Assembly (NCBI RefSeq): GCF_963675165.1
Contig: NC_087382.1
Location: 5,433,963 to 5,497,962, forward strand
Direction: 5' to 3'
DNA length: 64,000 nt
DNA from: Halichondria panicea
Lineage: Eukaryota > Porifera > Demospongiae > Suberitida > Halichondriidae
Shown here: positions 1-64,000 of the stretch, piece after piece
How positions within the stretch are numbered: position 1 is the first letter of the stretch
Layout: each line of letters opens with the position of its first letter
Made by a program: the position numbers and the translations under genes
Notes under the pieces: model-generated
Told to the model about the DNA's origin: nothing
The model's database searches: none
The model's input: only the letters and a program-made list of their open reading frames with translations

Positions 1-77
1 GACTGTATGAATAGATTCACTCAGGTGTGTCTCTGAGCACAGCTGGATATGATAAATAGATTCACTCGGATTGTTGC
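1..77. other. 3' flank of a type II transporter module
   Basis: The stretch is near-identical to the end of the type II transporter 3' flank seen again near 30210, 39150, 44550, 56230 and 61360. It has two imperfect copies of an ATAGATTCACTC motif. It stops at the target duplication GTTGC of the retrotransposon that follows. No coding potential is seen. It shows that a type II transporter probably lies just left of the window. Confidence 0.75.
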
Positions 78-322
78 TGAGATAACTTCAATAATTCATT
101 AAATCAGAACTCTGATACATACAAAATACACAGGCTATTTATACAAAAACAATACTAGAAAGAACCTTCTAGAACACTGGTACAGAAATGACTAAATATA
201 AGAACATGAAACCACTAGAACTAACACAACACAGTATTTACGGAATCACAGGTTTACAGTACAGTATTTACGGAATCACAGTCTTTATCTTAATGTTTGT
301 TCCATGTCGTAAGGATACCACA
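78..322 (-). repeat. 3' LTR of the Ty3/gypsy element
   Basis: On the minus strand it starts TGTGGTATCC and ends TTATCTCA, giving the TG...CA ends expected of an LTR. It matches 4172-4404 almost throughout. It holds extra bases absent from the other LTR: about 8 bp around 153 and 2 bp around 200. A polypurine tract abuts its inner edge, which identifies it as the 3' LTR. Confidence 0.9.
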
Positions 323-333
323 TTTCCTCCCCT
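323..333 (-). promoter_or_regulatory. polypurine tract of the Ty3/gypsy element
   Basis: The minus strand reads AGGGGAGGAAA directly before the TGTGG of the 3' LTR. This is the expected position for the plus-strand primer of reverse transcription, just after the last pol codon. Confidence 0.8.
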
Positions 334-334
334 G

Positions 335-1685
335 TTAAATGTTAGTGTACCCACCATATCGATCAGGCCTGTTGCGATTTCTTTGCGGATATTGTCGAGC
401 TGTTAATGCACCAGTTGAGGGTGACTCATCAGGTGGGGTCGGAGACAGATCAGTTGACTGATCAGGGGAAACTTCAAAATCTTGCAAATCGTTGTGAGCT
501 GCCGTATTGTCGAAATCGTTTGGATTTGTTATATCGTCTTGTGACGACTTGGTGGTGGAAAGAGAATGAGTTCTATCACGTATGTGGTCGAGATGTCGCC
601 GTAGTATCCTGCCATCACCAATTTCCACTTTGTAAGATACTGGTCCTGTCTGTTGTACAATGCTTCCTGGAAGCCTTGTTCGGAAATCTTTGAGCATTAC
701 TTGTTGACCAACAGAGAACGTCCTCGGTTTAGCATGTTTGTCATGTTGCTGTTTCTGTTTCATCTGCTTGTCAGATACCTTTCCCTCTGTGTTTGGTTTG
801 AGGAGATCGAATCATGTACGTATTTTTCTTTGAAGGAACAGTTCACTCGGTGAGACGTTAGTGGTAGCATGTGGAGTTGAGCGGTATGAGTCCTTCTCTC
901 TCTCCAGCTTTCATGGCTCTTTTGAACGTTTGTACAAATCGTTCAGCTTGGCCGTTCGTGGAGGGATGGTATGGAGCACTTCGTATGTGTCTTATGCCAT
1001 TGGCTTGGCTAAATTCTTGGGATGTGAATTGTGCACCATTGTCGGAAACAATCTGTTCTGGTAGTCCATACCGAGCAAATAGTGCTTGCAGTGCCTCGAT
1101 TGTGTTTTGAGACGTGGTGGAAGACATCTGAATCACTTTTGGCCACTTGAAATGGGCCACTAGAAACATTTTGTTAAGAATGGACCAGCGTAGTCAATAT
1201 GGATCCTTTTCCATGGGCTGTTTGGCCAAACCCAAGGATGGAGTGGTGCTACTGCAGGTTTAGAGGCTTGTTCCTGGCACGATAGGTACGCTTTTGCTTG
1301 GTTTTTGATGTCTTTATCGAGTCCACTCCACCACACGTAACTGCGGGCAATAGCCTTCATTCGGACATTCCAGGGTGGTTCTTATGGAGAGCACGAAGGG
1401 TCTTTGCATGCAGGTTCTGTGGAATGATTGTGCGAATCCCCCACATCAAGCAACCACTTTCGATGCCAATTTCAAGACGGCGATTGAAATATGGTTGTAG
1501 ATCCGGTGTCACTTTCTGTGGCCATCCTGATTTGACATACTTTAACACCTTGCTTAAGGTTGGGTCACGTCGGGTAGCCATCTGCACCTGCTGAGATGTT
1601 ACAGGAAGAGCTTCGATTTGAGCCACATTGAAAGTGTGAATAGCATTAATGTCAGTCGTTTCGTACGAATCTTGTACTGGCAAGG
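335..1685 (-). pseudogene. integrase region of the Ty3/gypsy pol, broken
   Basis: Three reading-frame pieces together give an integrase. The N-terminal zinc-binding part has the H-x-H pair in HKNHPGMSE, but the first cysteine of the CxxC pair appears to be replaced (YLSCQ). The catalytic core has its three acidic residues in HIDYAGPF, IVSDNGAQFT and TNGQAERFVQ. The C-terminal part (PGSIVQQTGPVSYKVEIGDG) reads into the last stop just before the polypurine tract. Frame is lost near 1160-1180, where a short deletion removes residues after the first catalytic aspartate, and again near 1357 and 860. Catalysis by this copy is not expected. Confidence 0.85.
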
Positions 1686-1689
1686 GGAG

Positions 1690-2956
1690 ACGTGATATAA
1701 TGCATCAGCATTGCTGTGTGCTTGAGTGGGCTTGAATTTTATATTGTAGTCATAACCTGAGAGAAAAATTGCCCAACGTTGGAGACGAGCAGCTGCTAGG
1801 GACGGTATTCCTTTCTTTGGGCCAAATATAGCTGTCAGAGGTTTGTGTGTGAATTTTCTGCCATACAAATACTGGTGAAACTTTTTGGTACCAAATACCA
1901 ATGCCAGTGCTTCTTTCTCGAGTTGAGCATAGTTTTGTTCACTTGTCGTTAGCGTGCGTGAAGCAAAACAGATTGGTCTCTCAGCCCCGTCTGGTAGTAC
2001 ATGAGAAATAACGGCTCCAATGCCATAGGCTGACGCGTCCGCAGCCATGTTGATTGGTAGGTCCGGGTCATAGTGGGTGAGCACATCAGATGATGTAAGT
2101 TGTTTCTTTGCTTCTGTAAAAGCTTCCTGACATTCCTGTGTCCATTCCCACTTATGACTCGCTTGCAGAAGTTGGTTGATTGGGTAAAAGATGTTAGAGA
2201 GATTCTTGATGAACTTTCCGTAGTAGTTCAGCAACCCGAGAAGTTCTTGAACATTCTTTGGTTCTGGAGCCTGTGCGATAGCATCAACTTTACTTGGAAG
2301 AGCTTGGATTCCCTCTTTGCTGATCTGATGACCAAGATATTCTACCGACTTGGCCAAAAAAATACATTTCTCCTTCTTCAATCGCAACCCATGTTCTGTA
2401 AAAGGTTTTAGGACTTGCTCCAGATTGTGTAGGTGGTCTTCTTCATCCACTCCTGTTATCAACAGATCGTCTAAGTAGCAGATAACGTGAGGCACTCCAC
2501 GTAGGATGGTGTCCATCAGTCTTTGAAATATTGCTGGGGCTGACGCCACGCCAAAAGGAAGTCGGCTGAACTGGTATAACCCTTGATGGGTATTGATAGT
2601 CACGTATTTGGTAGAGTCCTTATCGAGTTCGACCTGTAGATACGCTTGTGAAAAGGGAGCCATTTGCTAGTGTTGCGAATAGGTCTTCGGGTTTAGGCAA
2701 GGGGTACTGATCAACTTCAAGGTCTTGGTTGATAGTCACTTTATAGTCGCCGCAGAGTCGAAAACGTCTGTCTTTCTTGGGAACTGCGACCAACGGTGCT
2801 ACCCAGTCACTGCTAGGTATTTTCTGGATGATACCTTGTTGCTCCATGCGGTCCAATTCATCTCCAATAGCCTCTTTGGTTGCATAAGGAAAGGACGTGG
2901 TTTGAAAAACCGAGGAGTAGCATCTGGTCGTACTCTGAGAGTGGCTTTGTGTGAGG
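1690..2956 (-). pseudogene. reverse transcriptase and RNase H region of Ty3/gypsy pol, broken
   Basis: The palm motif VICYLDDLLITG is intact, as are VPKKDRRFRLCGDY upstream and the RNase H start NMAADASAYGIGAV. The order RT then RNase H then integrase fits Ty3/gypsy. Near 2645-2655 a short deletion fuses GSLFT to a QAYLQ-encoding stretch in the wrong frame. This removes the first catalytic aspartate segment expected between them. A second frameshift lies near 1685 at the end of RNase H. The element cannot make an active polymerase from this copy. Confidence 0.88.
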
Positions 2957-3419
2957 TCACAGTACCTTGAACAATGAATCGTATTCCTGTAACAAATTCT
3001 TTAGTGTACCTGCAGGGGGAGATTTGACAGTTGCAATACATTTCCAGTCCAACTGGAGGTACTTCAGCCAATTGCGTCCAAAAAGACAAAAGACTTGGTC
3101 CACTTCCAGCAAGCACCAGCCGAGCCACCTGTTCTCCATAATTAACACACACATTAATCTGACCTGTTACCATCATAGCCTCATCTGTATATGTCTTTAG
3201 CAAAATATTGGACTTACGCAGCTTGAATTTAGAGAACTTGGCCTTTCTGGTGGCCTCAGAGATAATAGATATTGCAGCTCCGGTATCGATTTCCATCTTG
3301 AGTGGAGTATCCTCGATCTTGACTGTAACTGTGATCGGCTGTGTAGAAGGCTCGGTCAATCGGTATAGGTGGTAAGTGTCAGCTTCTGAGTCGGTCGAGC
3401 TGTTCCCATCTGGTTCCAC
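2957..3419 (-). pseudogene. aspartic protease region of the Ty3/gypsy element, broken
   Basis: The retropepsin active-site motif appears as MEIDTGAAISII around 3265-3300, followed by a GPSL segment. The frame changes near 3090 within GPSLL, where the expected GRNWL motif is found in another frame. Further loss of frame follows before the reverse transcriptase. The continuing frame upstream carries the nucleocapsid. Confidence 0.8.
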
Positions 3420-4157
3420 TAAGTGAGTTTTGAACCTTCTCTTCTCTGTCTTCTTGAACTGAGAGGGTGGGTTGGAGCGGCAGGCTGGTGCTATGTGTCC
3501 CTGCTTTCCACATGAGTGACACTCTGCATCCTTGAAACGGCAATCAGCTGCGGAGTGATTCGACTTTCCACAGCGGTAACAAGGTTGGTTTGGCTGCAGT
3601 CTCCTTTTGCTTTGTATGCTCTTGATGGAGGGGTTGAGCGCTCTGGTGTTGCTCTCTGCTGCTTCCATTCCCTGTGCGATTTCCATTGCTCTCTTCAAAG
3701 TAAGTTCTGTTTCGGCTAATAGTCTTCTTTGCATTGCTTCGCTTCGGAGTTCTGCAACGAAACGGTCACGTAGGGCTTCAGTGAGATACGCCCCAAAATT
3801 TCAGTGTGTTGCCAGCTTGAGTAAAGCTGCATCGTATTCTGCTAAAGATTCGTCAGGGACTTGATCCCTTTTTTGAAAATGAAAACGTTCTGCGATCACC
3901 GCTCGTGTCGGTTCCTAGTGCTTCCGTAGTGCAGCAAATATTTCTCCCTTTGTCTTCGATTTGGGAGCCTCAGGTGCAAGCAAGTCACATAGAAGACTGT
4001 AGGTCGTTGCACCAATGGAGCTGAGGAGAATAGGTACTTGCTTATCATCAGGGACTGTATTCGCCGTGAAGTAGAGGTCTACCTGATCCAGGTAGGTCTT
4101 GATAGACTCTTGGTCTGGTCTGTAATTGTTGAGAGTTCCATAGTGTGTGGCTGCCAT
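3420..4157 (-). pseudogene. gag / nucleocapsid region of the Ty3/gypsy element, broken
   Basis: The start ATG lies about 14 bases inside the 5' LTR. The N-terminal part (YRPDQESIKTYLDQVDLYF) is the short gag type common in invertebrate gypsy elements. Two CCHC zinc knuckles follow, CYRCGKSNHSAADC and CHSCGKQGHIAPAC, around 3480-3590. Two in-frame stops interrupt the reading frame: a TAG at 3915-3917 and a TGA near 3800. No clear tRNA primer-binding site is visible between the LTR and the ATG. Confidence 0.82.
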
Positions 4158-4171
4158 TGCTGTAGGCTACT

Positions 4172-4404
4172 TGATCTCGTCAATAATTCATTAAATCAGA
4201 ACTCTGATACATACAAAATACACAGGCTATTTATACAAAAACAATACTCCTTCTAGAACACTAGTACAGAAATGACTAAATAAGAACATGAAACCACTAG
4301 AACTAACACAACACAGTATTTACGGAATCACAGGTTTACAGTACAGTATTTACAGAATCACAGTCTTTATCTTAATGTTAGTTCCATGTCGTAAGGATAC
4401 CACA
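4172..4404 (-). repeat. 5' LTR of the Ty3/gypsy element
   Basis: It matches the 3' LTR over about 225 bases, differing by small indels. Its inner terminus is altered: TGATCTCGTC replaces TGAGATAACTTC, so the exact inner end is uncertain by several bases. Its outer end CCACA abuts the GTTGC target duplication. Confidence 0.85.
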
Positions 4405-4467
4405 GTTGCCACCAATAAAACCATCCCTATAATTAAATATATATACCTGTGTGTGTGTGTGTCTGTT

Positions 4468-5550
4468 ATGAGACAAACTAACTCTACAAACGAAGGCAGC
4501 CCTCTGGTATCAAGGAATGGCTGCTAGTGCAAGTACATGTATACAGAGCTATTCCAACAGAGCATTTCTCTTCTTTTGCCCCCCTGGTCTTCGCTACCAC
4601 AGGTGGCCTTAGCCCAGCAGCTGCAGCCTTCTACAAACGCTTGGCCAGCATCCAGCACCATGCACCATTGGCTGGCTAAGATCATTCTCACTACTCAGAT
4701 CCTCTATCATGTGTCTGAGAGGTGCCAAATCTTCGAAGTCATCCTTCAACGGCCATCTATAGCTGCTTCCGTGGACCTCACCATTGCAGACTCCAACCTC
4801 TCTGTCTGAACTCTGAATAATTATAGCTTCACATTACCTTGCCTTATCCATTTCTCAGCCTCCGTTACTCAAAATTATTCAATACATGTTAAAAAAAAAC
4901 AGAGCATTTCTCGTTTGGGTCTGGAGTATGCTGTTTATGATCAGTTAGTTTCTCATGTATTCCGTCAACGACCTGATGTCAATTTTGAAATGGCTAGATC
5001 TAGATGCTATCCCTGTAATTGCATTTGGTTTTTTGGAGCTGTTTTCTCAGGATGGCTAGTTGACGCTAAGCTGGGGAACTATATAGAGTAGTATTGTTCC
5101 TCCAGTATTTGTTTTCTAGTGCCACACTATAGCTCCTGGCATTGCTCATTACTTGAGCTTGTTTCTAATTCTGGAACCAGTCTACTACTATATCACAGTG
5201 ATTTAGGCAGTCCATTATAATTGAAATATTACATTCGGTTTCTCAAAGTTGCTCACAATGTTACTTGCTATATATTATAGTACCATGTGCAGCTATAGAT
5301 ATATAGTTTGTGCTCAAGCTCCATACAACATGAGAGGAGTGCATGTTTGGAGGGTACATACGGCACTTGCGCTGATGTCACCTTCAATTATCAGCTTTTC
5401 TTTTCTATTGAACATCACTATATTATATGGGATTAAAGCCGCTGTCAGTCTGCTTGGCTTCATCCTATACTTGTCTCCTGGCTCGCTGGTACAAGAGGAG
5501 AGTTTGAGATGAGGACACAAGCTTTTGTGGAGGAATTCTATATAATCTGT
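4468..5550 (+). pseudogene. transporter pseudogene, alpha class, with retrotransposon fragment
   Basis: It begins with the family leader MRQTNSTNEGSPLVSRNGC and meets TAG at codon 20. A retrotransposon fragment splits the sequence inside the first membrane helix (next entry). After it, shifted pieces of TM1-TM2 are recognisable, including the GWLVDAKLGN-like loop near 5050. The stretch from about TM3 to TM9 is missing. The end resumes with the AQAPYNMRG motif and the GFILYL-type last helix. It belongs with the copies at 44691 and 61493, which also sit directly upstream of type I genes. Confidence 0.88.
4571..4899 (+). mobile_element. 5'-truncated non-LTR retrotransposon fragment
   Basis: The insert ends in a run of A's and is flanked by CAGAGCATTTCTC (4558-4570 and 4900-4912), a duplication of host coding sequence. 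It encodes part of a motif resembling the C-terminal tail found after the reverse transcriptase in some invertebrate elements (AFYKRLASML, SFSLLRSSIMCLRG in better copies). In this copy the frame is damaged and part of the segment is deleted. Poly(A) plus target duplication indicate target-primed insertion. The element family is not identified. Confidence 0.8.
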
Positions 5551-5925
5551 TATATAGACACGTTTTTTTCATCATCTGCAATCATGCATGTATGTCGTAA
5601 AATGTAAATGTGTTACTACATGATATAAAAATATTATTTTTTATTTGTTGTGTTAATTATTTTCATCAGTAGATCTCTATATACAGTCATGCAATTTGTC
5701 AATGGACACCTCTGATAATATATATTTTAGCTTGTCTGTACTAACGATCGATTGTATGTGAAACTAAACTTCTAATAGCAACATGATTCCTTTGAAGTTC
5801 CACTATAATTATATATTTTTATAAGAACCACACAGTAGTTACAAGTTTCACTCATTGCAACAAATAGATTTTGCTCTCCTATAGTTACAACAATAGTGTT
5901 TGCCATCCCTACATGTGCATCAGTT
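5551..5925 (+). other. spacer before type I transporter
   Basis: No gene is seen. The stretch recurs before the type I genes at 46186 and 62965. It ends in a pyrimidine-containing stretch (TTGCTCTCCTATAG) and CAG-like triplets just before the start codon, so a 5'-UTR splice acceptor is possible but unproven. Confidence 0.6.
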
Positions 5926-7488
5926 ATGAGACAAACTAACTCTAGGAGCGGAGGCAGCCCTCTGGTATCAAGGAATGGCTGATGCAAGTACAGAGTGAGG
6001 TGGTTCTATTCCAAAGGAGCATTTCTCGTTCTGGTCTGGGTTATGCTGTTGACTATAGCCTGTATATCAGTGTACCATGTGTTCCATCAACAACCTTATG
6101 TCAATTCTGTAATTTCAAAATGGCTACTTGCTATCCCACCTGTGTTTGGTTTGTTTGGAACTGTTTTCTCAGGATGGTTAGCTGACGCTAAGCTTGGGAA
6201 CTACAGAGTGATGAAATACAGTTTTGTGCTGTTATTTCTTACAAGTTTGTTTTCTAGTGCCATCACCCTAGTTTCTGGCATTGCTCATTACGTGTATGTT
6301 GTGAGTGTCTTGTACTGCATAGGTGGGAGTCTCTCTATAGTAGCTGTGGTAGCATGCTATGTTACTTCACTACAACTTGGCCTGGATCAGATGCCTGATG
6401 CTTCATCTTCCAATATCACTAGTTTTATTGCCTGGTTTGCATTCAGTATCTATGCTGGTGTTTGGATTCCTTATGTTGCCGATTTGCCCATTATATCTGG
6501 TACTTTGTGTAGCAGTCAAATGCCATATCGGGTTGTTCAACTTTACAGTTTGCTGCCACCTTTGTGTATGAGTGCTGTTCTTATTCTTGACTTTCTCCTA
6601 GCTAAGAAATGGCTTATAATTGAGCCAAAGTCACCTCAGTCTCTAACAACCATCTACCAAGTTCTCAAGTTTGCAGCCAAGCACAAAGCTCCCCTCAATC
6701 GCAGTGCTCTCACATACTGGGAGGAAGACGTACCTTCAAGAATGGACCTGGGAAAGTTAAGATATGGTGGACTATTCACTACGGAGCAAGTTGAAGATGT
6801 GAAGACCATCCTATGTTTGTTACCCCTCTGCTTAACGCTATGGCTTCTTGGGTGCTCACTTGCAATATTCCATCCGTTAAACCATGCTTATAGTGTTTAT
6901 CCTCCAGATTGGAATTGTTATGTTTCAAGGCTTCTGTCTTTGTTCACATATCACAATTTGTGGTGTGGTATGGTTTGGACAATCTTTTATGAATTTGTTC
7001 TATACCCAGTGATTTGTAACAAGCTTCCCAGCATCCTTAGAAGAATTGAGATAATTTCTCTCTTCAATATGACTCTCAGTATTGTGTTTCTAATTCTGGA
7101 ACTACTACAAACCAATTTCGATGATTTCGATGCAATCAAGTATGTTACAATCGTCTTAACTTCAATTTCTAGAGGTTTGCTCACAATGTTGCTTGCTAGT
7201 ACCATGCTGGAGTTAATTTGTGCTCAAGCTCCATACAACATGAGAGGATTGTTTGGAGGGTGTTTGGTGTTGGTGTTGTTTTCATCTTTTATTATTGGCT
7301 ATTGCTTTCCATTGAACGTCAGACTCACAATATATGGGGTTATTGTTAGAGTAGGGATCAGTCTGCTTGGATTTATCCTGTACTGCCTCCTGGCTCGCTG
7401 GTATAAAAGAAGAGTTAGAGACGAGGACTACAATGCACACAGAGTGGTGGAGGAGGTCTATGATCGATATTTGTCAGCTCAGCATTAA
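5926..7488 (+). pseudogene. type I POT-like transporter, one stop codon from intact
   Basis: The frame runs the full 520 codons to the family C-terminus [10 protein letters not shown]. It is interrupted only by TGA at 5980-5982 (codon 19), where the sister genes at 46186 and 62965 have TGG and type II genes have TGT or TGC. Everything downstream, from [10 protein letters not shown] through twelve predicted helices, is open. Type I marks are VYHVFHQQPYVNS after TM1, NHAYSVYPPDWNCY in the TM7-8 loop, and NAHRVVEE near the end. The next in-frame ATG lies inside TM1, so reinitiation would lose the cytosolic N-terminus and probably part of TM1. It could be a young pseudogene, a readthrough case, or an assembly error. 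Confidence 0.75.
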
Positions 7489-7864
7489 GATATCTGCCTA
7501 TGCACAGAACCACCATTTATGTTGGTATAGATGTACAGGTGATTCATTGTGAACAGCTTGCACACACACACGTACACACAAAAAAGCGTGCTATATAAAC
7601 AGTTTTAGTATGCTCACTGCACTTCTTTTTTTTCATCAGTCTTGCAATTTATCATTGGACACCTTTGATTATCTTTGAGCTTGTATTAACAATCGATGGC
7701 ATGTACAAATACTGAAACTGCAATAACCCTTTCAGGGAAGATAGTTGCTATGATTATAAGTGTGTCGCACTGCATGCAAGAATAATATAATTTCACTCAG
7801 TATTACAATACAATAATAATATATAGAAACTTAGATTTTGCTCTACTAATTACAGTATACGTTT
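7489..7864 (+). other. 3' flank of type I transporter
   Basis: Noncoding stretch with short CA runs near 7560-7580 and a T-rich tract. It recurs after the copies at 24346 and 48360, which shows it belongs to the ancestral module. No RNA gene or regulatory element was recognised. Confidence 0.55.
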
Positions 7865-8395
7865 AGCAGCCATCCCTACATGAGACTGTGTGTGTGTGAC
7901 TGTCTGCATGATATATAAGACAAACTATAACTCTACAAATGAAGACAGCCCTCACAGTGAGGTGGTTCTATTCCAAAGGAGCATTTCTCCTTCTGGTCTG
8001 GATTTTGCTGTTGACTATAGCCTGTTCCTCGGTGCCTGGTGTATCCCCCTGGTGCCAATGTTATAATTTCGAAATGGCTACCTGCATGCTACTGGTTTGT
8101 TAGGAGCTGCATGTTTTCTCAGGATGGCTAGCTGACGCTAAACTACTTGGGAACTACAGAGTGATGAAATACAGTTGTTTCTTCCTATGCTTTCTAGTCA
8201 CTTGCACCCTAGTTCCTGGCGTTGCTCAATATACGTGAATGTCTTGTACTGCATAGGTGCATGGGAGTACGTCTCTTTATCGTAGCAGGAGTAGCATGTT
8301 TTGTTACCTCACTATACAACTCGGCCTGGATCATATCCAAAACTTTAAGTATGCTGCAAAATCATCAACAACAATTACTGCAAAGGAAGAAATCG
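7865..8395 (+). pseudogene. decayed transporter fragment (TM1-TM5 part)
   Basis: The stretch matches the transporter from just before the start codon to the LGLDQMP motif, but with many indels. The leader is reduced to an ACAAACT...GACAGCCCTC stretch, and the frame is lost repeatedly within and after TM1. Similarity ends after CTGGATCATATCC. Equivalent pieces lie at 24709 and 48726. In all three the fragment is the last transporter-derived sequence before the non-transporter part of the module. Confidence 0.82.
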
Positions 8396-8672
8396 CATAA
8401 TTATGCCATATACATGTATACATGACTTGTAGTCATGGCAATGTCAATGGAATACGAATGTAATTACTTATGAAGCTCTTGGAAAGGCTTACTATAAAAA
8501 TTATTATGGTAGGACAAAACAAATTTGCCATAATTATTTTGAGAAGGTATACCATCGACTTGGGTATTTCCGAAAAAACCTGTGGCCGTTTGGCAACAGC
8601 TTTACAAAGCCATTAAGATTAAAGAAACAATCATCAATAACTAAAGCTAAAACATAATTATGCGAGCACTAT

Positions 8673-11600
8673 CACATTGTTCCAGTGGATTCAACCGACT
8701 TTTGTCAGGACTATCGAAATGAAACTTGTTTCACTCTCGAGCAGTTTGTTCAAACAGACCTGTTATCTGGTGGAGACAATCTCACTTTAAGCTTTCTACC
8801 TGGATATCATGTGTTAACTGATCATTTATTGATTCGTAACTTCTCGCATGTGTAAATCACTGGCCAGAACACAAGTATACAACTGTAGTTGGATTTCATA
8901 GCAATGGTATGATACTTTTTGTTAGTATTTCTGAATTAAATATTGAAAACTTTGGTTTTGTTAGAGCGAATTTAGGACCTCAAAACAATGATCAAACTTT
9001 TATCATTGACGGTGCCAATGATGTGCACATCAATAAAGACTGCTACTTTTCAGACTTGAAAAACCACCTCGTTAAAATTGTTAATACTCAAACTGTAACA
9101 ATTGAGAGCACTCTCTTTATAAACAACACTGGTCAAGCACTGCACATTGAGGCTGATGATGTGTACATAGCAAATAGCAAGTTCACTAGAAATGATGGAG
9201 GTGGTGCAGTTGACATTGAATCAAACAATACGCTGATCACCAACACAGAGTTCAACTACAATAGTGCTGTGAGCGGAGGAGCATTACAAGTGGTATCTGG
9301 TACTGTAGTGATCACTTGGTGTAACTTCACAAATAATATAGCTTCTCAGGATGGTGGATCGATTCATGTTGTCTCAGGCAGTGTGTCCATCTCCGACAGT
9401 GAGCTGACAAATAACATTGCTGACTATGGTGGAGCGATCGATGTTTACTCAGGTAGTTTGTCCATCTCCAACAGTGAGCTGGCAAATAATAGTGCTGACT
9501 ATGGTGGAGTGATTGATGTTGTCTCAGGTAGTATGTCCATCTCCAACAGTGAGTTGACACACAACAGTGCTGTCTACTATGGTGGAGCGATTGATGTTGT
9601 CTCAGGTAGTGTGTCCATTTCCAACAGTGAGCTGACAAACAACAGTGCTGGCTATGGTGGAGCGATTGATGTTGTCTCTGGCAGTGTGTCTATCTCCAAC
9701 TGTGAGCTGAAAAACAACGGAGCTGACTGTGGTGGAGCAATTCTTGTTGACTCAGGTAATGTGACAGTGTCCATCTTCAACAGTGAGCTGAAAAACAACA
9801 GAGCTGACTCTGGTGGAGCGATTTATGCCGGCTCAGGTAATGTGTTCATCTCTAACAGTGAGCTGACAAAAAACAGTGCTAACATTGGTGGAGCGATTTA
9901 TGTTGACTCAGGTCATGTCATTGTGTCCAACAGTGAGCTGAGAAACAACAGAGCTGACTCTGGTGGAGCAATTTATGCCGGCTCAAGTAATGTGTCCGTC
10001 TCCAACAGTGAGCTGACAAACAACAGAGCTAGAGATAGAGGAGTGATATATGTTGATTCAGGCGAAACGTCCGTCTTTAACAGTACCCTAGCCAACAACA
10101 GTGTTGACCTTGGAATGATTTATGTTTCTCGGTCTTTCTTGATATTTAAAGGCACTAACATTGCTAATAACATAGCCAGGTTCTATGGAGGATGGAGGCA
10201 TTATTTATGCTTTTAACAGTCGAGTCGACTTTAATGGACCTACAACATTCAGTAATAATCGTAGTATGCTTGGAGGAGCCATCAGCGCTGAACAGAGTCG
10301 AATATACATTAACACGGAAGGAGTGATCATCATCAACAACACGGCTACCTTTGGAGGAGAGATATTTCTGAGAGAAAGTTCACTCTTCGTATATAAGCCA
10401 ATAAAGATCTATCAAAACACAGCACACCAGGATGGTGGAGGGATTTAGGCTTTTTCAAGTACAATTGAATTTCACACTGCAAGTAAACAAAGTGAGATTA
10501 CTGAAAACATTGCCGAGAATGGTGGAGGTATTTATGCAGTAGCAACAACCCTTAACCTTACTCAATCATACGTTAACATTGACTCAAACACAGCTAATGC
10601 TAGTGGAGGTGGAATGTATCTACAGCAATTTTCGAAACTGTACCTATTTAAAAAGGACTCTGAGGAAAACTTAACATATGTCACGTTGATGATTAACAAC
10701 AACGTGGCTCAGTACGAAGGGGGGATATTTGTGGCAGATGACACACAGAGGAGCCCGTGTGGAGGAGGGGCCACAGAAGATGATGCTACTCAAACTATTT
10801 TTGCTGAATGCTTTTTTCAAACAATTAAATTGTATAATCATGCCTCCGTAAACTATTTCATGACTAACAACAAAGCTACCCAGTCAGGAGCAGACATCTA
10901 CGGAGGTCTGTTGGACAGGTGTACAGCAAGTAAAAATGCTGAATATAAATCTTCAAAAGGGTTGGACTACATCAGTAACACTATAAAATCCTCCACCGAA
11001 TTGTCAATATCCTCTAGACCTGTTTAAGTATTTCTTTGCAAAAATGACTATAAAGTTATTTCCACAAGAAAGGGATACACATTTAAAATCAGTGTTATGG
11101 TTGTTGACCAAGTTGGAAATCCAATAAAAGCAACAATTCGCATGTTCTGTTATCACTGAGAGTGAGAGTTGGTCGTCTCAAAGAAGGACAGGCAGAACAA
11201 GAAGTTGGCAATCAGTGCACAGAATTAGAGTACAATGTATTCTCACAAGACAGCTCTGCTCAAGTGGAACTCTATGCTGAAGGTCCATGTATTAATTTGG
11301 GAATTTCAAGACAACTTATCAATATTTCTTTTCAAATCTGCTCATGCCCTATTGGGCTCAAATCTGTCGAGTCCGATATTGAGTACAAGTGTGTTTATGA
11401 TCTAGATTTGCAACAAAGATATCGGATAACAAACTGTTTTGAGGAAAATGGAACCGTAACGCTGGAAAGAAATAACAACATGTGGATAGAAGTCATAAAT
11501 ACTACGAAACAGGTTACGTTGTTAGCAGTACATTTGACTATTGTGTGCAAAAACCAGTCAACATCAGTCTAAGCAACCCTGACAAACAGTGTGCCTACAA

Positions 11601-49262: not shown

Positions 49263-49538
49263 TGTATACATGTATACATGACTTGTAGTCATGGCAATGT
49301 CAATGGAATACGAATGTAATTACTTATGAAGCTCTTGGAAAGGCTTACTATAATTATTGTAGTAGAACAAAACAAATTTGCCATAATTATTTTGAGAAGG
49401 TATACCGTCAACTTGGGTATTTCCGAAAAAAACATGTGGCCGTTTGGCAACTGCTTTACAAAGCCATTAAAGAAATAATCATCAATAAACTAAGCTAAAA
49501 CATAATTATACCGTATAGCAGGTAATTTTATTGTGTAG

Positions 49539-53924: not shown

Positions 53925-55478
53925 ATGAGACAAACTAACTCTACGAGCGGAGGCAGCCCTCTGGTATCAAGGAATGGCTGTTGCAAGTACAGAGTGAGGT
54001 GGTTCTATTCCAAGGGAGCATTTCTTGTTCTGGTCTGGAATATGCTGTTGACCATAGCCTGTGTGTCAGTGTCTCATATATTCCGTAAACGACATGATGT
54101 CAATATTGTAATTTCAAAATGGCTATTTGCTTTTCCTATTGTGTTTGGTTTTTTTGGAGCTGTTTTCTCAGGATGGCTAGCTGACGCTAAGCTGGGAAAC
54201 TACAGAGTGATGAAATACAGTTTTGTACTGTTGTTTCTTATATCTTTGCTTTCTAGTGTCGTCACCCTAGTTCCTGGCATTGCTCATCATGTGTATGTTG
54301 CGAGTGTCTTGTACTGCATAGGTGGGAGTCTCTCTATAGTAGCTGTGGTAGCATGCTTTGTTACCTTATTACAGCTTGGCCTGGATCAGATGCCTGATGC
54401 TTCATCTTCCAATATTACTAGTTTTATTGCCTGGTTTGTATTCAATATCTATGCTGGTTTTTGGATCTCAAACGTTTCCAATTTGCCCATTATATCTGGT
54501 ACTTTGTGTAGCAGTCAAATACCATACTGGGTTGTCCAACTTTACAGTTTGCTGCTACCTTTGTGTTTGAGTGCTGTTCTTATTCTTGATTTTCTCCTTG
54601 CTAAGAAATGGCTTATAATTGAGCCAAAGTCACCTCAGTCTCTAACAACCATCTACCGTGTTCTCAAGTTTGCAGCCAAGCACAAGGCTCCCCTCAATCG
54701 CAGTGCTCTCACATATTGGGAGGAAAACGTACCTTCAAGAATGGACCTGGGAAAGTCAAGATACGGTGGACCATTCACTACAGAGCAAGTTGAAGATGTG
54801 AAGACCATCCTACGTTTGTTACCCCTCTGTTTAACACTATCGCTTTTTGGGTGCTCACTTGCAATATTCCATCCACCACATGAAACATTGTATCTTCCCG
54901 ATGTGAATAGTTATGTTTCAGAGCTTCTGGCCTTAATCACATACAACTCTTGGTGGTGTGGTATGGTTTGGACGGTCTTTTATGAATTTATTCTATACCC
55001 TGTGATTCGTAACAGGCTTCCCAGCATTCTTAGAAAAATCGGAATCATTTCTTTCTTAATCACGGCTCTCGACATTGTGTTTGTAATTCTGGGACTAGTC
55101 CACTACTATCACAGTGATTTAGTGGCAGTTCGTTATGTCATTGTGATATTACATTCAGTTTCTCAAGGTTTGTTCCTAATGTTGCTTGCTAGTGCCATGC
55201 TGCAGTTAGTTTGTGCTCAGGCTCCATACAACATGAGAGGAGTGTTTGGTGGATGTACAATACTTGCGTTGATGTTACCTTCGATTATCACGGATTCTTT
55301 TCCATTGAAATTCACATTAACAATATTATATGGGATTAAAGCCGCTGTCAGTCTGCTTGGATTCATCGTGTACTGCCTCCTGGCTCGCTGGTACAAAAGG
55401 AGAGTTAGAGACGAGGACTACAATGTACAAGCTGTTGTGGAGGAGGTGTATGATCGATACTTGTCAGCTCAACATTGA
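53925..55478 (+). CDS. type II POT-like transporter, intact, 517 residues
   Basis: The frame is open from MRQTNSTSGG to SAQH. Distinct residues include KWLFAFPIVFGFFGAV in TM2, HHVYVASVLYC in TM4, LSLFGCSLAIF in TM7, and GGCTILALMLPSIITDS in TM11. Its 5' half matches the 5' half of the hybrid at 22897 (VSHIFRKRHDVNIVISKW), so a gene of this kind was the type II parent of that recombination. The position is equivalent to 36845, one module earlier. Confidence 0.85.
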   Translation: MRQTNSTSGGSPLVSRNGCCKYRVRWFYSKGAFLVLVWNMLLTIACVSVSHIFRKRHDVNIVISKWLFAFPIVFGFFGAVFSGWLADAKLGNYRVMKYSFVLLFLISLLSSVVTLVPGIAHHVYVASVLYCIGGSLSIVAVVACFVTLLQLGLDQMPDASSSNITSFIAWFVFNIYAGFWISNVSNLPIISGTLCSSQIPYWVVQLYSLLLPLCLSAVLILDFLLAKKWLIIEPKSPQSLTTIYRVLKFAAKHKAPLNRSALTYWEENVPSRMDLGKSRYGGPFTTEQVEDVKTILRLLPLCLTLSLFGCSLAIFHPPHETLYLPDVNSYVSELLALITYNSWWCGMVWTVFYEFILYPVIRNRLPSILRKIGIISFLITALDIVFVILGLVHYYHSDLVAVRYVIVILHSVSQGLFLMLLASAMLQLVCAQAPYNMRGVFGGCTILALMLPSIITDSFPLKFTLTILYGIKAAVSLLGFIVYCLLARWYKRRVRDEDYNVQAVVEEVYDRYLSAQH

Positions 55479-56381
55479 CTAAATGTTGTTCTGTTACGAC
55501 TGCATGATACGTTTTATCCTCTGTCTTTTTGTCGATCATACATGTTCAGAAAAATTATACGTAAATGAGCTAACTATATACATGTAGAGTTAAGTCATTG
55601 TGTTTGGCTGTCCTCTTGGTATGTGTACTGGCGTGGTGTGTTGTGATCTATCTTGATCTACCCTGTTCTATCCTGATGTGTTTTGTTATGTATTTATCAC
55701 ACTATTGTTGTGTGATCACTTTTGTTATGATTATCATGCACCTTTCGTTTCTGGATTGTTCTGGACTATTCTCGATTATTCTCTTATTCTCGATCAGCCC
55801 CCTGGGACTTGACTCTTATAAATAGCATTACCTTTTTCAATTGTTGTTGCTGATGATACCATGTACTTATCGTGAATTTACTTACGAAGTAAAAAATATT
55901 TATTGGCAGTCAATCCCTGAACTTGAAACAATAGCAATAAATAGTCTAGCCTGTCTAGCTATATACTCTTTTGCATGGTTGCAAGAAGAATCTAACAGGC
56001 TGTTTTGCACACATAATTAGTTAAATCATTCTCTAATACAGTCATGCAATTTATCATTGGACACCTTTGATTATCTTTGAGCTTGTATTAACGATCAATG
56101 CATGTACAAATACTGAAAAACTACGCTCATAGCAACATGATTATTATGGCCATTTGGGAGAAATCTGTTGAAGTTCCACCATGCACTATAACTATGTTGA
56201 CTTATTGTACGAACCACTCCATGGTACTGACTGTATGAATAGATTCACTCAGGTGTGTCTCTGAGCACTGGATATGATGAAGAATAGATTCACTCAGGAT
56301 TGTTGCCACCAATAGTTATTGCGCAACTGTCCCTATAATTAGATATACCTGTGTGTGTGTGTGTCTGCGTCTGTGTCTGTT
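55479..56381 (+). other. 3' flank of type II transporter
   Basis: Standard flank. The region of the repeated hydrophobic small frame has an altered start (ATGTAGAGTTAAGTCATTG). It ends with a GT microsatellite. Confidence 0.6.
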
Positions 56382-57561
56382 ATGAGACAAACTAACTCTA
56401 TACGAACGAAGGCAGCCCTCTGGTATCAAAAAATGGCTGCTAGTGCAAGTACATGTACAAAGCATTCCAACAAAGCATTTCTCTTCTTTTACCCCCCTGG
56501 TCTTCGCTACCACAGGTGGCCTTGGCCCAGCAGCTGGAGCCTTCTACAAACGCCTGGCCAGCATGCTCTCGGACAAATGGAAGCAACCATACAGCACCAC
56601 CATTGGCTGGCTAAGATGTAGAATATCATTCTCACTACTCAGATCCTCTATCATGTGTCTGAGAGGTGCCAAATCTTCGAAGTCATCCTTCAACGACCAT
56701 CTAGCTGCTTCCCGCGTGGACCTCACCATTGCGGACTCCAACCTCTCTGCATGTCTGAACTCTGAATAATTATAGCTTCACATTACCTTGCCTTATTCAT
56801 TTCTCAGCCTCACAATAATATTTCAATACATGTTTAAAAAAAACAGAGCATTTCTCGTTTTGGTCTGGAGTATGCTGCATGTTTAGTGTCTCATGTATTC
56901 CTTCAACGACCTGATGTCAATTTTGAAATGGCTAGATCTAGATGCTATCCCTATAATTGCGTTTGGTTGTTTGGAACTGTTTTCTCAGGATGGCTAGTTG
57001 ACCCTAAGCTGGGGAACTATATAGATCTATATAGAGTAATTGTTAATTGTTCCTCCTCCAATATTTGTTTTCTAGTGCCATACTAATTCCTGACATTGCT
57101 CATTAATTGAGCTTGTTTCTAATTCTGGAACCAGTCTACTACTATATCACAGTGATTTAGGCAGTCCATTATATCATAGATATACATGTAGTAGAGGGAT
57201 ATAATCTACTATCTATGATTATAATTTTCATTGACATAATTATTACATTCGGTTTCTCAAAGTTTGCTCACAATGTTACTTGCTATATAGTACCATGTGC
57301 AGCTATAGATATATAGTTTGTGCTCAGGCTCCATACAACATGAGAGGAGTGCATGTTTGGAGGGTGCATGGCACTTGCGCTGATGTCACCTTCAATTATC
57401 AGCTCTTCTTTTCTATTGAACATCACTATAATCATTATATGGGATTAAAGCCGCTGTCAGTCTGCTTGGCTTCATCCTGTACTTGTCTCCTGGCTCGCTG
57501 GTACAAGAGGAGACTTTGAGATGAGGACACAAGCTTTGTGGAGGAGCTCTATATGATCTGA
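56382..57561 (+). pseudogene. transporter pseudogene, beta class, with retrotransposon fragment
   Basis: Nearly the same as the copy at 39307, one module earlier, including the internal deletion and the short palindromic insertion near 57173-57222. Differences are few, for example GGTATCAAAAAATGG in the leader. Confidence 0.9.
56484..56843 (+). mobile_element. 5'-truncated non-LTR retrotransposon fragment
   Basis: Same insertion as at 39409, with its frame open over 108 codons (56443-56769) and a slightly shorter A-run. The preserved frame reflects recent duplication rather than demonstrated function. Confidence 0.82.
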
Positions 57562-57834
57562 CACGTTTTTTTATCATCTGCATGTCTGTCAATCATGCAT
57601 GTATGTCGTAGAATGTAAATGTGTTACTACATGATACAAAAATATTATTTTTCATTTGTTGTGTTTCCACACATAATTATTTTCATCAGTAGATCTCTAT
57701 ATACAGTCATGCAATTTGTCAATGGACACCTCTGATAATAATTAGCTTGTCTGTGTTAACGATCGATTGTATGTACGAATCTGAAACTAAACTTCTAATA
57801 GCAACATGATTCCTTTGAAGTTCCACTATAATTA

Positions 57835-59084: not shown

Positions 59085-60627
59085 ATGAGACAAACTAACT
59101 CTACGAGCGAAGGCAGCCCTCTGGTATCAAGGAATGGCTGTTGCAAGTACAGAGTGAGGTGGTTTTATTCCAAAGGAGCATTTCTCGTTCTGGTCTGGAT
59201 TATGCTGTTGACTATAGCCTGTATATCAGTGTCCCATATATTTCGTAACGTCAATTTTGTAATTTCAAAATGGCTATTTGCTATTCCTATTGTGTTTTGT
59301 TTGTTGGGAGCTGTTTTCTCAGGATGGCTAGCCGACGCTAAGCTGGGGAACTACAGAGTGATGAAATACAGTTTTGTACTGTTGTTTCTTACAACTTTGC
59401 TTTCTAGTGTCATCACCCTACTTCCTGGCATTGCTCATTACGTGTATGTTGTGAGTGTCGTGTACTGCATAGGTGGGAGTATCTCTATAGTAGCTGTGGT
59501 AGCATGCTTTGTTACCTTATTACAGCTTGGCCTGGATCAGATGCCTGATGCTTCATCTTCCAATATCACTAGTTTTATTGCCTGGTTTATATTCAGTATC
59601 TATGCTGGTGTTTGGATCCCGAACGTTTCCAATACCCATTATATTTGGTACTTTGTGTAGCAGTCAAATACCATACTGGGTTGTCCAACTTTACAGTTTG
59701 CTGCCACCTTTGTGTATGAGTGCTGTTCTTATTCTTGACTTCCTCCTAGCTAAGAAATGGCTTATAATTGAGCCAAAGTCACCTCAGTCTCTAACAACCA
59801 TCTACCGTGTTCTCAAGTTTGCAGCCAAGCACAAGGCTCCCCTCAATCGCAGTGCTCTCACATATTGGGAGGAAAACGTACCTTCGAGAATGGACCTGGG
59901 AAAGTCAAGATATGGTGGACCATTCACTACAGAGCAAGTTGAAGATGTGAAGACCATCCTACGTTTGTTACCCCTCTGCTTAACACTATGGCTTCTTGGG
60001 TGCTCACTTGCAATATTCCATCCACCACATGAAACATTGTATCTCCCCGATATGAACAGTTATGTTTCAGAGCTTCTGGCCTTAATCACATACAACTCTT
60101 GGTGGTGTGGTATGGTTTGGACGGTCTTTTATGAATTTATTCTATACCCTGTGATTCGTAATAGGCTTCCCAGTATTCTTAGAAAAATCGGAATCATTTC
60201 TTTCTTAATCACGGCTCTCAACATTGTGCTTGTAATTCTAGGACTAGTCCACTACTATCACAGTGATTTAATGGAAGTTCATTATGTCATTGTGATATTA
60301 TATTCAGTTTCTCAAGGTTTGCTCACAATGTTGCTTGCTAGTGCCATGCTGCAGTTAGTTTGTGCTCAGGCTCCATACAACATGAGAGGAGTGTTTGGTG
60401 GGTGTATAACATTTGCGTTGATGTCACCTTCGATTATCAGCCATTCTTTTCCATTGAAATTCACATTAAGAATATTATATGGGATTAAAGCCGCTGTCAG
60501 TCTGCTTGGATTCATCGTGTACTGCCTCCTGGCTCGCTGGTACAAGAGGAGAGTTAGAGACGAAGACTACAATGTACAAGCTGTTGTGGAGGAGGTGTAT
60601 GATCGATACTTGTCAGCTCAACATTGA
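59085..60627 (+). pseudogene. type II transporter with a 2-bp deletion
   Basis: Counterpart of the 42293 gene, with the same short FRNVNFVI segment. In the TM5-6 loop CCAATTTGCCCATT has become CCAATACCCATT, which shifts the frame and gives a stop at 59658-59660. The remaining frame (59509-60627) is open to SAQH with all later motifs intact. No second lesion is seen, so the break is young or an assembly artefact. Confidence 0.82.
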
Positions 60628-61492
60628 CTAAATTTTGTTCTGTTACGACTGCATGATACGTTTTATCCTCTGTCTTTTTGTCGATCATACATCTTCAGAA
60701 CAATTATACGTAAATGAGTGAACTATATACATGTAGCATTGTGTTTGGCTGTGTTGGTATGTGTACTGGCGTGGTGTGTTGTGATCTATCTTGATCTACC
60801 CTGTTCTATCCTGATGTGTTTTGTTATGTATTTATCACACTATTGTTGTGTCATCACTTTTGTTATGATTATCATGCACCTTTCGTTTCTGGATTGTTCT
60901 GGACTATTCTCGATTATTCTCTTATTCTCGATCAGCCCCCTGGGACTTGACTCTTATAAATAGCATTACCTTTTTCAATTGTTGTTGTTGCTGATACCAT
61001 GTACTTATTGTGAATTTACTTACGAAGTAAAAAATATTTATTGGCAGTCAATCTCTGAACTTGAAACAATAGCAATAAATAGTCTAGCCTGTCTAGCTAT
61101 AATCTTTTGCATGGTTGCAAGAAGAATCTAACAGGCTGTTTTGCACACATAATTAGCTCTAATACAGTCATGCAATTTATCATTGGACACCTTTGATTAT
61201 CTTTGAGCTTGTATTAACGATCAATGCATGTACAAATACTGAAACTACGCTCATAGCAACATGATTATTATGGCCATTTGGGAGAAATCTGTTGAAGTTC
61301 CACCATGCACTATAACTATGTTGACTTATTGTACGAACCACTCCATGCATGGGCACTGTATGAATAGATTCACTCGGGTGTGTCTCTGAGCACTGGATAT
61401 GATGAATAGATTCACTCAGGATTGTTGCCACCAATAGATATTGCTCGCAACTGTCCCTATAATTAGATATACTGTGTGTGTGTGTGTCTGTT
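60628..61492 (+). other. 3' flank of type II transporter
   Basis: Standard flank with the repeated hydrophobic small frame (60718-60963), the empty site of the Ty3/gypsy element near 61419, and a GT microsatellite. No gene recognised. Confidence 0.6.
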
Positions 61493-62592
61493 ATGAGACA
61501 AATTAACTCTATACGAACAAAGGCAGCCCTCTGGTATCAAGGAATGGCTGCTAGTGCAAGTACATGTACAAAGCTATTCCAACAAAGCATTTCTCTTCTT
61601 TTACCCCCCTGGTCTTCGCTACCACACGTGGCCTTGGCCCAGCAGCTACATCCTTCTACAAATGCCTGGCCAGCATGCTCTCGAACAAATGGAAGCAACC
61701 ATACAGCACCATGCACCATTGGCTGGCTAAGATCATTCTCACTACTCAGATCCTCTATCATGTGTCTGAGAGGTGCCAAATCTTCGAAGTCATCCTTCAA
61801 CGGCCATCTATAGCTGCTTCCGTGGACCTCACCATTGCGGACTCCAACCTCTCTGTCTGAACTCTGAATAATTATAGCTTCACATTACCTTGCCTTATCC
61901 ATTTCTCAGCCTCCGTCACTCGAAATTATTCAATACATGTTAAAAAAAAAAACAGAGCATTTCTCGTTGGGGGCTGGAGTATGCTGTTTGATCAGTTAGT
62001 GTCTCATGTATTTCGTCAACGACCTGATGTCATTTTGAAATGGCTAGATCTAGATGCTATCCCATAATTGCGTTTGGTTTTTTGGAGCTGTTTTCTCAGG
62101 ATGGCTAGTTGACGCTAAGCTGGGGAACTATATAGAGTAGTGTTGTTCCTCCAGTATTTGTTTTCTAGTGCCACACTATAGTTCCTGACATTGCTCATTA
62201 CTTGAGCTTGTTTCTAATTCTGGAACCAGTCTACTACTATATATCACAGTGATTTAGGCAGTCCATTATAATTGAAATATTACATTCGGTTTCTCAAAGT
62301 TTGCTCACAATGTTACTTGCTAGTATCATGTGCAGCTATAGTTTGTGCTCAGGCTCCATACAACATGAGAGGAGTGTTTGGTGGGTGTATGGCACTTGTG
62401 TTGATGTCACCTTCAATTATCAGCTCTTCTTTTCTATTGAACATCACTATTATAATTAAGATTAAAGCCGATCTGTCAGTCTGCTTGGCTTCATCCTGTA
62501 GATCTACTTGTCTCCTGGCTTACTGGTACAAGAGGAGAGCTTGAGATGAGATGAGGACACAAACTTTTGGAGGAAGTCTATATAATCTGTTA
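61493..62592 (+). pseudogene. transporter pseudogene, alpha class, with retrotransposon fragment
   Basis: Counterpart of 4468 and 44691. Unlike those, its late segment encodes IVCAQAPYNMRGVFGGCMAL in one frame. It therefore keeps TM10-11 better, or has been corrected by a functional gene. The TM3-TM9 part is missing as in the others. Confidence 0.87.
61596..61952 (+). mobile_element. 5'-truncated non-LTR retrotransposon fragment
   Basis: Same insertion as in the four other pseudogenes, ending in an A-run before CAGAGCATTTCTC. It shares the alpha-class deletion after GGCTGGCTAAG. Confidence 0.78.
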
Positions 62593-62964
62593 TATAGACA
62601 CTTTTTTTCATCTGCATGTCTGTCAATCATGCATGTCGTAAAATGTAAATGTGTTACTACATGATGTAATAATTATTGTTGTATTTCTACACATAATTAC
62701 TTTCATCTCTCTATACACAGTCATACAATTTGTCAATGGACACCTCTGATAATAATTATGTATTAACAATCGATTGCATGTACGAATACTGAAACTAAAC
62801 TTCTAATAGCAACATGATTCCTTTGAAGTTCCACTATAATTATATATTTGTCTTTATAAGAACCACACATGCAGTAGTTACAAGTTTCACTCATTGCAAC
62901 AAATAGATTTTGCTCTCCTATAGTTACAACAATAGTGTTTGCCATCCCTACATGTGCATCAGTT
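62593..62964 (+). other. spacer before type I transporter
   Basis: It matches 5551-5925 and 45791-46185 with several small deletions. No gene was recognised. Confidence 0.55.
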
Positions 62965-64000
62965 ATGAGACAAACTAACTCTACGAGCGGAGGCAGCCCT
63001 CTGGTATCAAAGAATGGCTGGTGCAAGTACAGAGTGAGGTGGTTCTATTCCAAAGGAGCATTTCTCGTTCTGGTCTGGGTTATGCTGTTGACTATAGCCT
63101 GTATATCAGTGTACCATGTTTTCCATCAACAACCTTATGTCAATTCTGTAATTTTGAAATGGCTACTTGCTATCCCATCTGTGTTTGGTTTGTTCGGAAC
63201 TGTTTTCTCAGGATGGTTAGCTGACGCTAAGCTTGGGAACTACAGAGTGATGAAATACAGTTTTGTGCTGTTATTTTTTACAAGTTTGTTTTCTAGTGCC
63301 GTCACCCTAGTTCCTGGTATTGCTCATTACGTATATGTTGTGAGTGTCATGTACTGCATAGGTGGGAGTCTCTCTATAGTAGCTGTGGTAGCATGCTATG
63401 TTACTTTACTACAACTTGGCCTGGATCAGATGCCTGATGCTTCATCTTCCAATATCACTAGTTTTATTGCCTGGTTTGCATTCAGTATCTATGCTGGTGT
63501 TTGGATTCCTTATGTTGTCGATTTGCCCATTATATCTGGTACTTTGTGTAGCAGTCAAATACCATACTGGGTTGTCCAACTTTACAGTTTACTGCCACCT
63601 TTGTGTGTGAGTGCTGTTCTTATTCTTGACTTTCTCCTAGCTAAGAAATGGCTTATAATTGAGCCAAAGTCACCTCAGTCCCTCAAAACCATCTACCGTG
63701 TTCTCAAGTTTGCAGCCAAGCACAAGGCTCCCCTCAATCGCAGTGCTCTCACATACTGGGAGGAAAACGTACCTTCAAGAATGGACCTGGGAAAGTCAAG
63801 ATATGGTGGACCATTCACTACGGAGCAAGTTGAAGATGTGAAGACCATCCTACGTTTGTTACCCCTCTGCTTAACGCTATGGCTTCTTGGGTGCTCACTT
63901 GCAATATTCCATCCGCTAAACCATGCTTATAGTGTTTATCCTCCAGATTGGAATTGTTATGTTTCAAGGCTTCTGTCTTTGTTCACATATCACAATTTGT
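62965..64000 (+). CDS. type I POT-like transporter, 5' part, runs off the window
   Basis: The frame is open for 345 codons from MRQTNSTSGG to the TM8 start (LFTYHNL), with TGG at the codon that is TGA in the 5926 copy. It carries the type I marks VYHVFHQQPYVNS and NHAYSVYPPDWNCY. LKWLLAIPSVFG and LLFFTSLFSS are specific changes in TM2 and TM3. Whether the 3' part is intact cannot be judged. Confidence 0.83.
   Translation, partial: MRQTNSTSGGSPLVSKNGWCKYRVRWFYSKGAFLVLVWVMLLTIACISVYHVFHQQPYVNSVILKWLLAIPSVFGLFGTVFSGWLADAKLGNYRVMKYSFVLLFFTSLFSSAVTLVPGIAHYVYVVSVMYCIGGSLSIVAVVACYVTLLQLGLDQMPDASSSNITSFIAWFAFSIYAGVWIPYVVDLPIISGTLCSSQIPYWVVQLYSLLPPLCVSAVLILDFLLAKKWLIIEPKSPQSLKTIYRVLKFAAKHKAPLNRSALTYWEENVPSRMDLGKSRYGGPFTTEQVEDVKTILRLLPLCLTLWLLGCSLAIFHPLNHAYSVYPPDWNCYVSRLLSLFTYHNL

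Follow-up and report, generated by a model that had tools for sequence, protein, structure and literature searches.

A probable tandem array of membrane-carrier genes and DNAJC13 fragments in the sponge Halichondria panicea

The stretch of DNA considered here, referred to below as the window, comprises 64,000 nucleotides of contig NC_087382.1 (positions 5,433,963 to 5,497,962, forward strand, assembly GCF_963675165.1) of the demosponge Halichondria panicea. It contains a dense net of direct repeats, which self-BLAST largely accounts for by a single module composed of membrane-carrier genes of three types (A, B, and C), carrier pseudogenes (P and Q), and the 3' end of DNAJC13, also known as RME-8. 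A first-pass annotation, made from the sequence letters, had described a tandem array pairing carriers with DNAJC13 3' fragments and had recognized five iterations of one module that can be ordered by shared junctions and indels; the repeat map bears out both descriptions, the iterations being modules 1 to 5. Nine carrier open reading frames (ORFs) are present. Five of them (C3–C7) are complete, single-exon ORFs of 513–518 codons, three (C1, C2, and C8) are broken, and C9 is open at the window edge, so of the six unbroken carriers counted initially five stand, and the sixth is open as far as the window reaches. The mention of many pseudogenes was justified, since copies of P, Q, and I occur besides the three broken carrier ORFs. 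The carrier-derived and DNAJC13-derived features are the following:

4434..5811, + strand: P1, carrier pseudogene without the middle of the gene (self-BLAST)
5926..7488, + strand: C1, type-C carrier with a stop at codon 19
7498..8661, + strand: Q1, carrier pseudogene, N-terminal part alone (self-BLAST)
14145..15689, - strand: I, divergent carrier pseudogene in inverse orientation, frameshifted, two of its tracts array-like
16481..20105, + strand: D1, DNAJC13/RME-8 3' fragment, ten exons recognized, exon-5 acceptor AC instead of AG (tblastn, Pfam)
22897..24341, + strand: C2, frameshifted hybrid carrier, type A in its 5' part and type C in its 3' part
24343..25493, + strand: Q2, carrier pseudogene joined to D2
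25494..27395, + strand: D2, DNAJC13 fragment, exons 5–10, 2-bp insertion in exon 7
27926..29479, + strand: C3, intact type-A carrier
30301..31644, + strand: tandem partial duplicate of the C3 3' end and downstream flank (self-BLAST, junctions)
31759..35386, + strand: D3, DNAJC13 fragment, ten exons, fused to the start of a P pseudogene; 1-bp deletion in exon 4, exon-3 donor AT
36845..38401, + strand: C4, intact type-A carrier, start of module 4
39287..40766, + strand: P4, carrier pseudogene (self-BLAST)
42293..43834, + strand: C5, intact type-B carrier
44655..46067, + strand: P5, carrier pseudogene (self-BLAST)
46186..47739, + strand: C6, intact type-C carrier
48360..49515, + strand: Q4, carrier pseudogene (self-BLAST, junctions)
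49516..51797, + strand: D4, DNAJC13 fragment, exons 5–10, 8-bp and 1-bp deletions in exon 9
53925..55478, + strand: C7, intact type-A carrier, start of module 5
56362..57834, + strand: P7, carrier pseudogene (self-BLAST)
59085..60627, + strand: C8, type-B carrier with a 2-bp frameshift
61460..62842, + strand: P9, carrier pseudogene (self-BLAST)
62965..64000, + strand: C9, type-C carrier, open to the window end, 345 codons

Module 4, with the order C4, P, C5, P, C6, Q, D4, is the sole complete module within the window. Module 5 repeats this order (C7, P, C8, P, C9) up to the window edge, 10.5 kb of it being visible. Positions 36446–41753 and 53521–58828 are 96.9% identical at an offset of 17,075 bp, and positions 42023–47212 and 58827–64000 are 94.3% identical at an offset of 16,804 bp (self-BLAST), the period changing beyond a 271-bp element of module 4. 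The 17.1-kb period proposed earlier is therefore correct, and the accompanying count of two full modules is not. Module 2 (C2, Q2, D2) is the collapsed form with a hybrid gene that the first-pass annotation had noticed, and the carrier with a direct fusion that it had also listed is module 3, in which C3 is followed by a tandem 1.3-kb copy of its 3' end and by D3 with its pseudogene–DNAJC13 join. Module 1 is truncated on the left and consists of a type-B-like flank (1–77), a long terminal repeat (LTR) element, P1, C1, Q1, a beta-helix gene, the inverted I, and D1. The best match of bases 1–77 is the downstream flank of a type-B carrier (93.5%), so the array continues beyond both ends of the window. 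Head-to-tail paralogues with shared breakpoints, and intact genes mixed with pseudogenes (P, Q, I, and the broken carrier ORFs), are what is expected of a tandem birth-and-death array. We consider it quite probable that the locus is a genuine tandem array of this kind, which unequal recombination, deletion, and ectopic gene conversion have shaped and in which DNAJC13 is carried along.

The junctions indicate how the module forms may have arisen. The joins of Q2 to D2 and of Q4 to D4 are identical, as is the filler at DNAJC13 intron 4, and thus one event served both modules. Between Q and DNAJC13, module 1 holds upstream DNAJC13 exons, the beta-helix gene, and the inverted I; because it keeps the interval lost in modules 2 and 4, the join in the latter two is best read as the trace of a putative deletion that removed roughly 9.6 kb of a longer parent. 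This indicates that the 17-kb module is itself probably a deletion product, and that the longer parent would also have held the beta-helix gene and the inverted divergent carrier. The P–D3 join of module 3 is different from the Q–D join and lies at a short shared sequence, and since D3 keeps the upstream exons, module 3 came from a longer module independently.

Of the 37 columns diagnostic for types A and C up to alignment column 600, the hybrid carrier C2 agrees with type A in 34; past column 900 it agrees with type C in 106 of 116, and the remaining 10 fit neither type (its 3' end is truncated). There are no diagnostic columns between 600 and 900, and the switch from A to C falls there, where the two types are indistinguishable. 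Such a structure is as would be left by an unequal crossing-over deleting the P–B–P interval. Type B (C5 and C8) is apparently a mosaic and not the clean reciprocal of C2: the 5' part of its ORF is mixed (A state at 22 and C state at 9 of the 37 columns), its 3' part is of type A at 112 of 116 columns, and its upstream flank, judged by eye, is type-C-like.

Exchange between carriers seems to have occurred on a finer scale as well. Silent divergence in codons 240–280 is 0.036 for C4/C6 and C7/C6, and 0.096 for C7/C1; for the former two pairs it is also low in codons 200–240 (0.018–0.077), other 40-codon windows giving 0.08–0.61. The inverted pseudogene I, when compared with the array, shows a synonymous divergence of 1.4–2.4 or saturation before codon 240, and 0.19–0.24 in codons 240–280. 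In codons with the same amino acid and the same first two bases, to which the comparison of third bases was restricted, the third base of I agrees with that of C4 in 42 of 49 codons of the core, 32 of 35 of the tail, and 58 of 140 elsewhere, and with that of C6 in 41 of 49, 26 of 32, and 75 of 156, respectively; a permutation scan over all positions gives P = 0.0012 (C4) and 0.041 (C6). Among eight copies, sites contradicting the grouping into types make up seven of the eight informative ones in columns 600–780 and 15 of 92 elsewhere (P = 7e-5 uncorrected, 0.005 scan-corrected), and a permutation test of neighbouring compatibility resembling the pairwise homoplasy index gives P = 0.004. In the 133-base tail I differs from the five type-A and type-B copies at 10–11 bases and these differ from C1 and C6 at 16–19, so type C lies farther from types A and B than I does, an odd position for I, which is the outgroup elsewhere. 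The codon counts exclude codons with gaps or stops; C2, C8, and I after its first frameshift do not enter the table of nonsynonymous and synonymous rates, nor does C2 enter the homoplasy test, which ends near column 1040, where C9 ends. It seems that carrier ORFs exchange short tracts, with the types homogenized around codons 200–290 and I array-like there and at its 3' end. Ectopic gene conversion is the sole process found that would fit these signals together. Tracts with a genealogy at odds with their flanks, which mark birth-and-death evolution with conversion, were found, a control based on shared variants (see below) counting against them.

Frame preservation suggests that carrier reading frames are maintained. 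In five overlapping comparisons their ORFs contain 1–2 indels against 7.5–21 expected from the flanks, and seven of the eight indels are multiples of three; in a sixth comparison, C2/C6, this is true of two of three. Divergence rates are patchy along the module, and that of the C5/C8 ORFs is slightly above that of their flanks (2.2 vs. 1.4%). Positive selection, considered for codons 58–116 with their 15 nonsynonymous and no synonymous private substitutions, is not claimed, since nine such bins were compared and the private changes taken together resemble the neutral expectation.

The only matches of the carriers among solved structures are SLC15A4 chains, with E values of 2.5e-11 for one sequence and 5e-12 for a profile of seven, the latter match covering profile positions 75–388. 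SLC15A4 (PHT1) is an endolysosomal peptide/histidine transporter. The carriers resemble it along the profile match, including the GwladaklG loop motif after transmembrane segment (TM) 2 and the segment GGPFTTEQVEDVK (GGpftteqvedvk in the profile alignment), both retained. They differ from it in lacking ExxER, the proton-coupling motif in TM1 of SLC15/POT transporters (no E..ER or E..EK in C3–C7 or the first part of I, six of six checked), and in aligning a valine with the TM4 lysine. The carriers tested with Pfam (C4, C6, and I) have no PTR2 match and no match at E 0.001, copy I giving a weak one to MFS_1 (E 0.0029), below the family cut-off. Five carriers show 11–12 hydropathy peaks. An AlphaFold2 model made with seven window proteins reached a predicted local distance difference test score of 36 and was discarded, and a tblastn search of prokaryote and viral contig collections, uninformative on animals, found no relative. 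The carriers are weak relatives of SLC15A4 and candidate transporters.

The identity of the DNAJC13 fragments, proposed in the first-pass annotation, was confirmed in two ways. With a human DNAJC13 query, tblastn aligned D1 in six distinct blocks (seven rows), and the Pfam family RME-8_N, independent of that query, matches D1 just above its cut-off (2.5e-6, 26.5 bits vs. 25.4). Like DNAJC13/RME-8, the fragments have the 3' exons with the IWN motif and a doubled YLT tail up to the stop, both YLT motifs being kept in all four copies. In contrast to it, every copy carries lesions, and the HPD pattern occurs at four places alone, all in exon 5 of D1–D4; a J-domain-type HPD was not found outside the fragments by a pattern search, which used no profile or full-length query. 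The first YLT of human DNAJC13 is reported to restrain endosomal localization (PMC12404652), and IWN motifs are proposed as conformational control points (PMC9642905).

Substitutions in these fragments bear the mark of coding constraint. Variable sites in exons 5–10 comprise 11 nonsynonymous and 20 synonymous ones (P = 2e-6), and the D1/D3 differences in exons 1–4 four and 16, respectively (P = 1e-7). The private amino-acid changes of D1 and D2 occur at the intron rate. D3 looks constrained, with such changes at 0 of 575 sites vs. 11 of 982 intronic ones (P = 0.009), and so does D4, whose private changes are 27 intronic, three silent, and one amino-acid change (1 vs. 27, P = 8e-5). The private changes of D3 (31759–35386) and D4 (49516–51797) are nearly all intronic or silent though both fragments are frameshifted. 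The simplest account would be that the sequences acquired much of their divergence at a time when they were functional DNAJC13 or were being refreshed from it. D2 and D4 share their truncation junction, and the constraint on D4 after that point is unexplained by such a history.

In the mechanism that we propose, non-allelic homologous recombination within carrier ORFs would be the engine, selection would keep carrier reading frames open, and DNAJC13 fragments would be passengers. The modules themselves differ by the Q–DNAJC13 join, the P–DNAJC13 join, the A/C hybrid, the 1.3-kb duplication, and inserted elements. The locus had earlier been called an actively changing gene-family nursery. The first part of this phrase is supported by the hybrid carrier, two independent deletions, the local duplication, and the signs of ectopic conversion; no evidence was found for a nursery, which implies new functions, private amino-acid changes being near the neutral ratio.

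Several observations weigh against the proposed mechanism. The flanks contain simple repeats and the pseudogene P, which inflate the expected number of indels. Private carrier substitutions (78 nonsynonymous and 32 synonymous) are not different from neutral (P = 0.14), and the case for carrier function therefore rests on frame preservation. ORFs diverge more than flanks in C4/C7 (4.0 vs. 1.8%, with 0.6% in the carrier pseudogene P) and in C3/C4 (3.7 vs. 2.4%), and P5/P9 is the most divergent pair at 6.1%, vs. 2.2% for C5/C8 and 2.6% for C6/C9. The core, the tail, and columns 600–780 were chosen post hoc, and the scan-corrected P values are the weaker ones (0.0012, 0.041, and 0.005). From column 1440 on, the tail of I has the A state at only nine of 15 diagnostic sites (C state at five, neither at one), and five of these nine fall in one cluster. 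Differences between C4 and C7 for which both states occur in other copies amount to 25 of 62 sites in the ORF and seven of 18 in the downstream flank, rates so similar that this measure does not set the ORFs apart. Finally, the private changes of D1 are mildly enriched for silent relative to intronic ones (P = 0.04), and coding constraint in the DNAJC13 copies is unexplained by the role of passenger.

Three other explanations of parts of these data were weighed. The divergence of modules 4 and 5 (3–6%) falls within the heterozygosity reported for some marine invertebrates, and differences among the DNAJC13 copies resemble those between alleles in being mostly silent, with few amino-acid changes; at least modules 4 and 5 might accordingly be alleles of one module, concatenated in the assembly of a highly heterozygous animal. 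Against this, structures of their own, including a hybrid gene, are seen in modules 2 and 3, each of modules 4 and 5 contains all three carrier types, and the 271-bp inverted-repeat element of module 4 is absent from module 5 although the left flank is 98.3% identical. Inserted elements, private junctions, the 3–6% divergence, and mostly frame-preserving ORF indels make pure assembly duplication, and false duplication of the modules in general, appear unlikely. Purifying selection on DNA or RNA, that is, synonymous constraint, could likewise underlie the homogeneous core and its likeness in I: at the protein level, too, the core is the best-conserved segment, silent divergence drops there by a similar factor in the A/C and the I/array comparisons, and an antisense ORF spans it in several copies. 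The shuffling of core variants among types (seven of eight informative sites, scan-corrected P = 0.005) and the tail of I, closer to A/B than type C is (10–11 vs. 16–19 of 133), which is unexpected for an outgroup, speak for exchange instead, and no Rfam family was above cut-off in the window; synonymous constraint is disfavoured as the cause of the core and given a low probability.

The DNAJC13 fragments might also be functional truncated genes making a C-terminal regulatory piece with IWN and YLT motifs, co-amplified because it is useful. The silent bias of both exon groups (11:20 and 4:16), the private changes of D4, and the presence in all four copies of both YLT motifs, of which the human YLT1 is described as restraining endosomal localization (PMC12404652), are in its favour, while at least one lesion in each of D1–D4 and the intron-like rate of private amino-acid changes in D1 and D2 are not; we regard this as quite improbable. 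Very improbable in our estimate is the wider proposal that the array is selected as a unit, in which carriers shuffle their halves around a fixed linker, yielding new transporters, and truncated DNAJC13 tails with IWN and YLT are kept as translated endosomal regulators and co-amplified with carriers of endolysosomal type. A tandem array evolving by birth and death, with DNAJC13 as passenger, remains the preferred reading.

Apart from carriers and DNAJC13, module 1 contains two larger features:

78..4404, - strand: LTR retroelement inserted in the downstream flank of a carrier, its coding region split into several pieces (RVT_1, RT_RNaseH, and zf-CCHC matches; LTR pair)
8658..12951, + strand: beta-helix (Chlam_PMP-repeat) gene in several frames or exons, found in module 1 alone

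The retroelement, which we take to be of the Ty3/gypsy type, has an apparent 5-bp target duplication, GTTGC. The beta-helix gene, between Q1 and the inverted carrier I, shows tandem offsets of about 75 bp (self-BLAST) and, later, hydrophobic stretches. The 271-bp element of module 4 (41753–42023) has 41-bp inverted ends and is absent from the sister site in module 5. Another inverted-repeat element (50973–51384, ends GGGGTTGGTAGATTATG), with an apparent 8-bp target duplication, lies in DNAJC13 intron 9 of D4. One element with 17-bp inverted ends (CAGGGCCGTAGCCACCA) is present twice in opposite orientation, at 47757–48356 and 51994–52488, flanking Q4–D4; its copies are not present at the homologous aligned sites of other modules. 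Upstream of C2, a 1.17-kb stretch (21362–22532) lies between 34-bp inverted repeats (97%). Rfam and tRNA scans of the window gave nothing at their thresholds.

Compared with the first-pass annotation, the longer parent module, the lesions in all four DNAJC13 copies, the SLC15A4-like carriers, and the exchange inside ORFs are new. The window offers a compact record of the growth and decay of a tandem family: a longer parent, two deletions that arose independently, a hybrid left by crossing-over, and tracts resembling conversion, which extend even to the inverted pseudogene I. It is also worth mentioning that the broken DNAJC13 fragments are more constrained than the open carriers, a testable oddity that bears on when and from what they were copied.

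Sequence swapping among tandem genes is a well-known route of gene-family change. Among titles and the opening parts of abstracts no description of this carrier/DNAJC13 locus was found, which does not prove its absence in print. The HMA4 cluster of Arabidopsis halleri, for which recurrent ectopic gene conversion among tandem transporter coding sequences is described (PMC3749932), is similar in having tandem membrane-transporter copies with conversion in coding sequences; it differs in consisting of three plant copies with a known dosage phenotype, whereas the window has at least nine ORFs, many pseudogenes, and an inverted partner, known from sequence only. In non-syntenic regions of Acropora, lineage-specific families expand in disordered clusters, attributed to non-allelic homologous recombination (PMC12314368). 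Disordered gene-family clusters and this type of recombination are common to both cases, the Acropora regions being megabases long and compared across phased haplotypes and species, and the locus described here being one 64-kb window of one genome. Set beside these systems, the window is a clear, fresh example of a known process, not a new kind.

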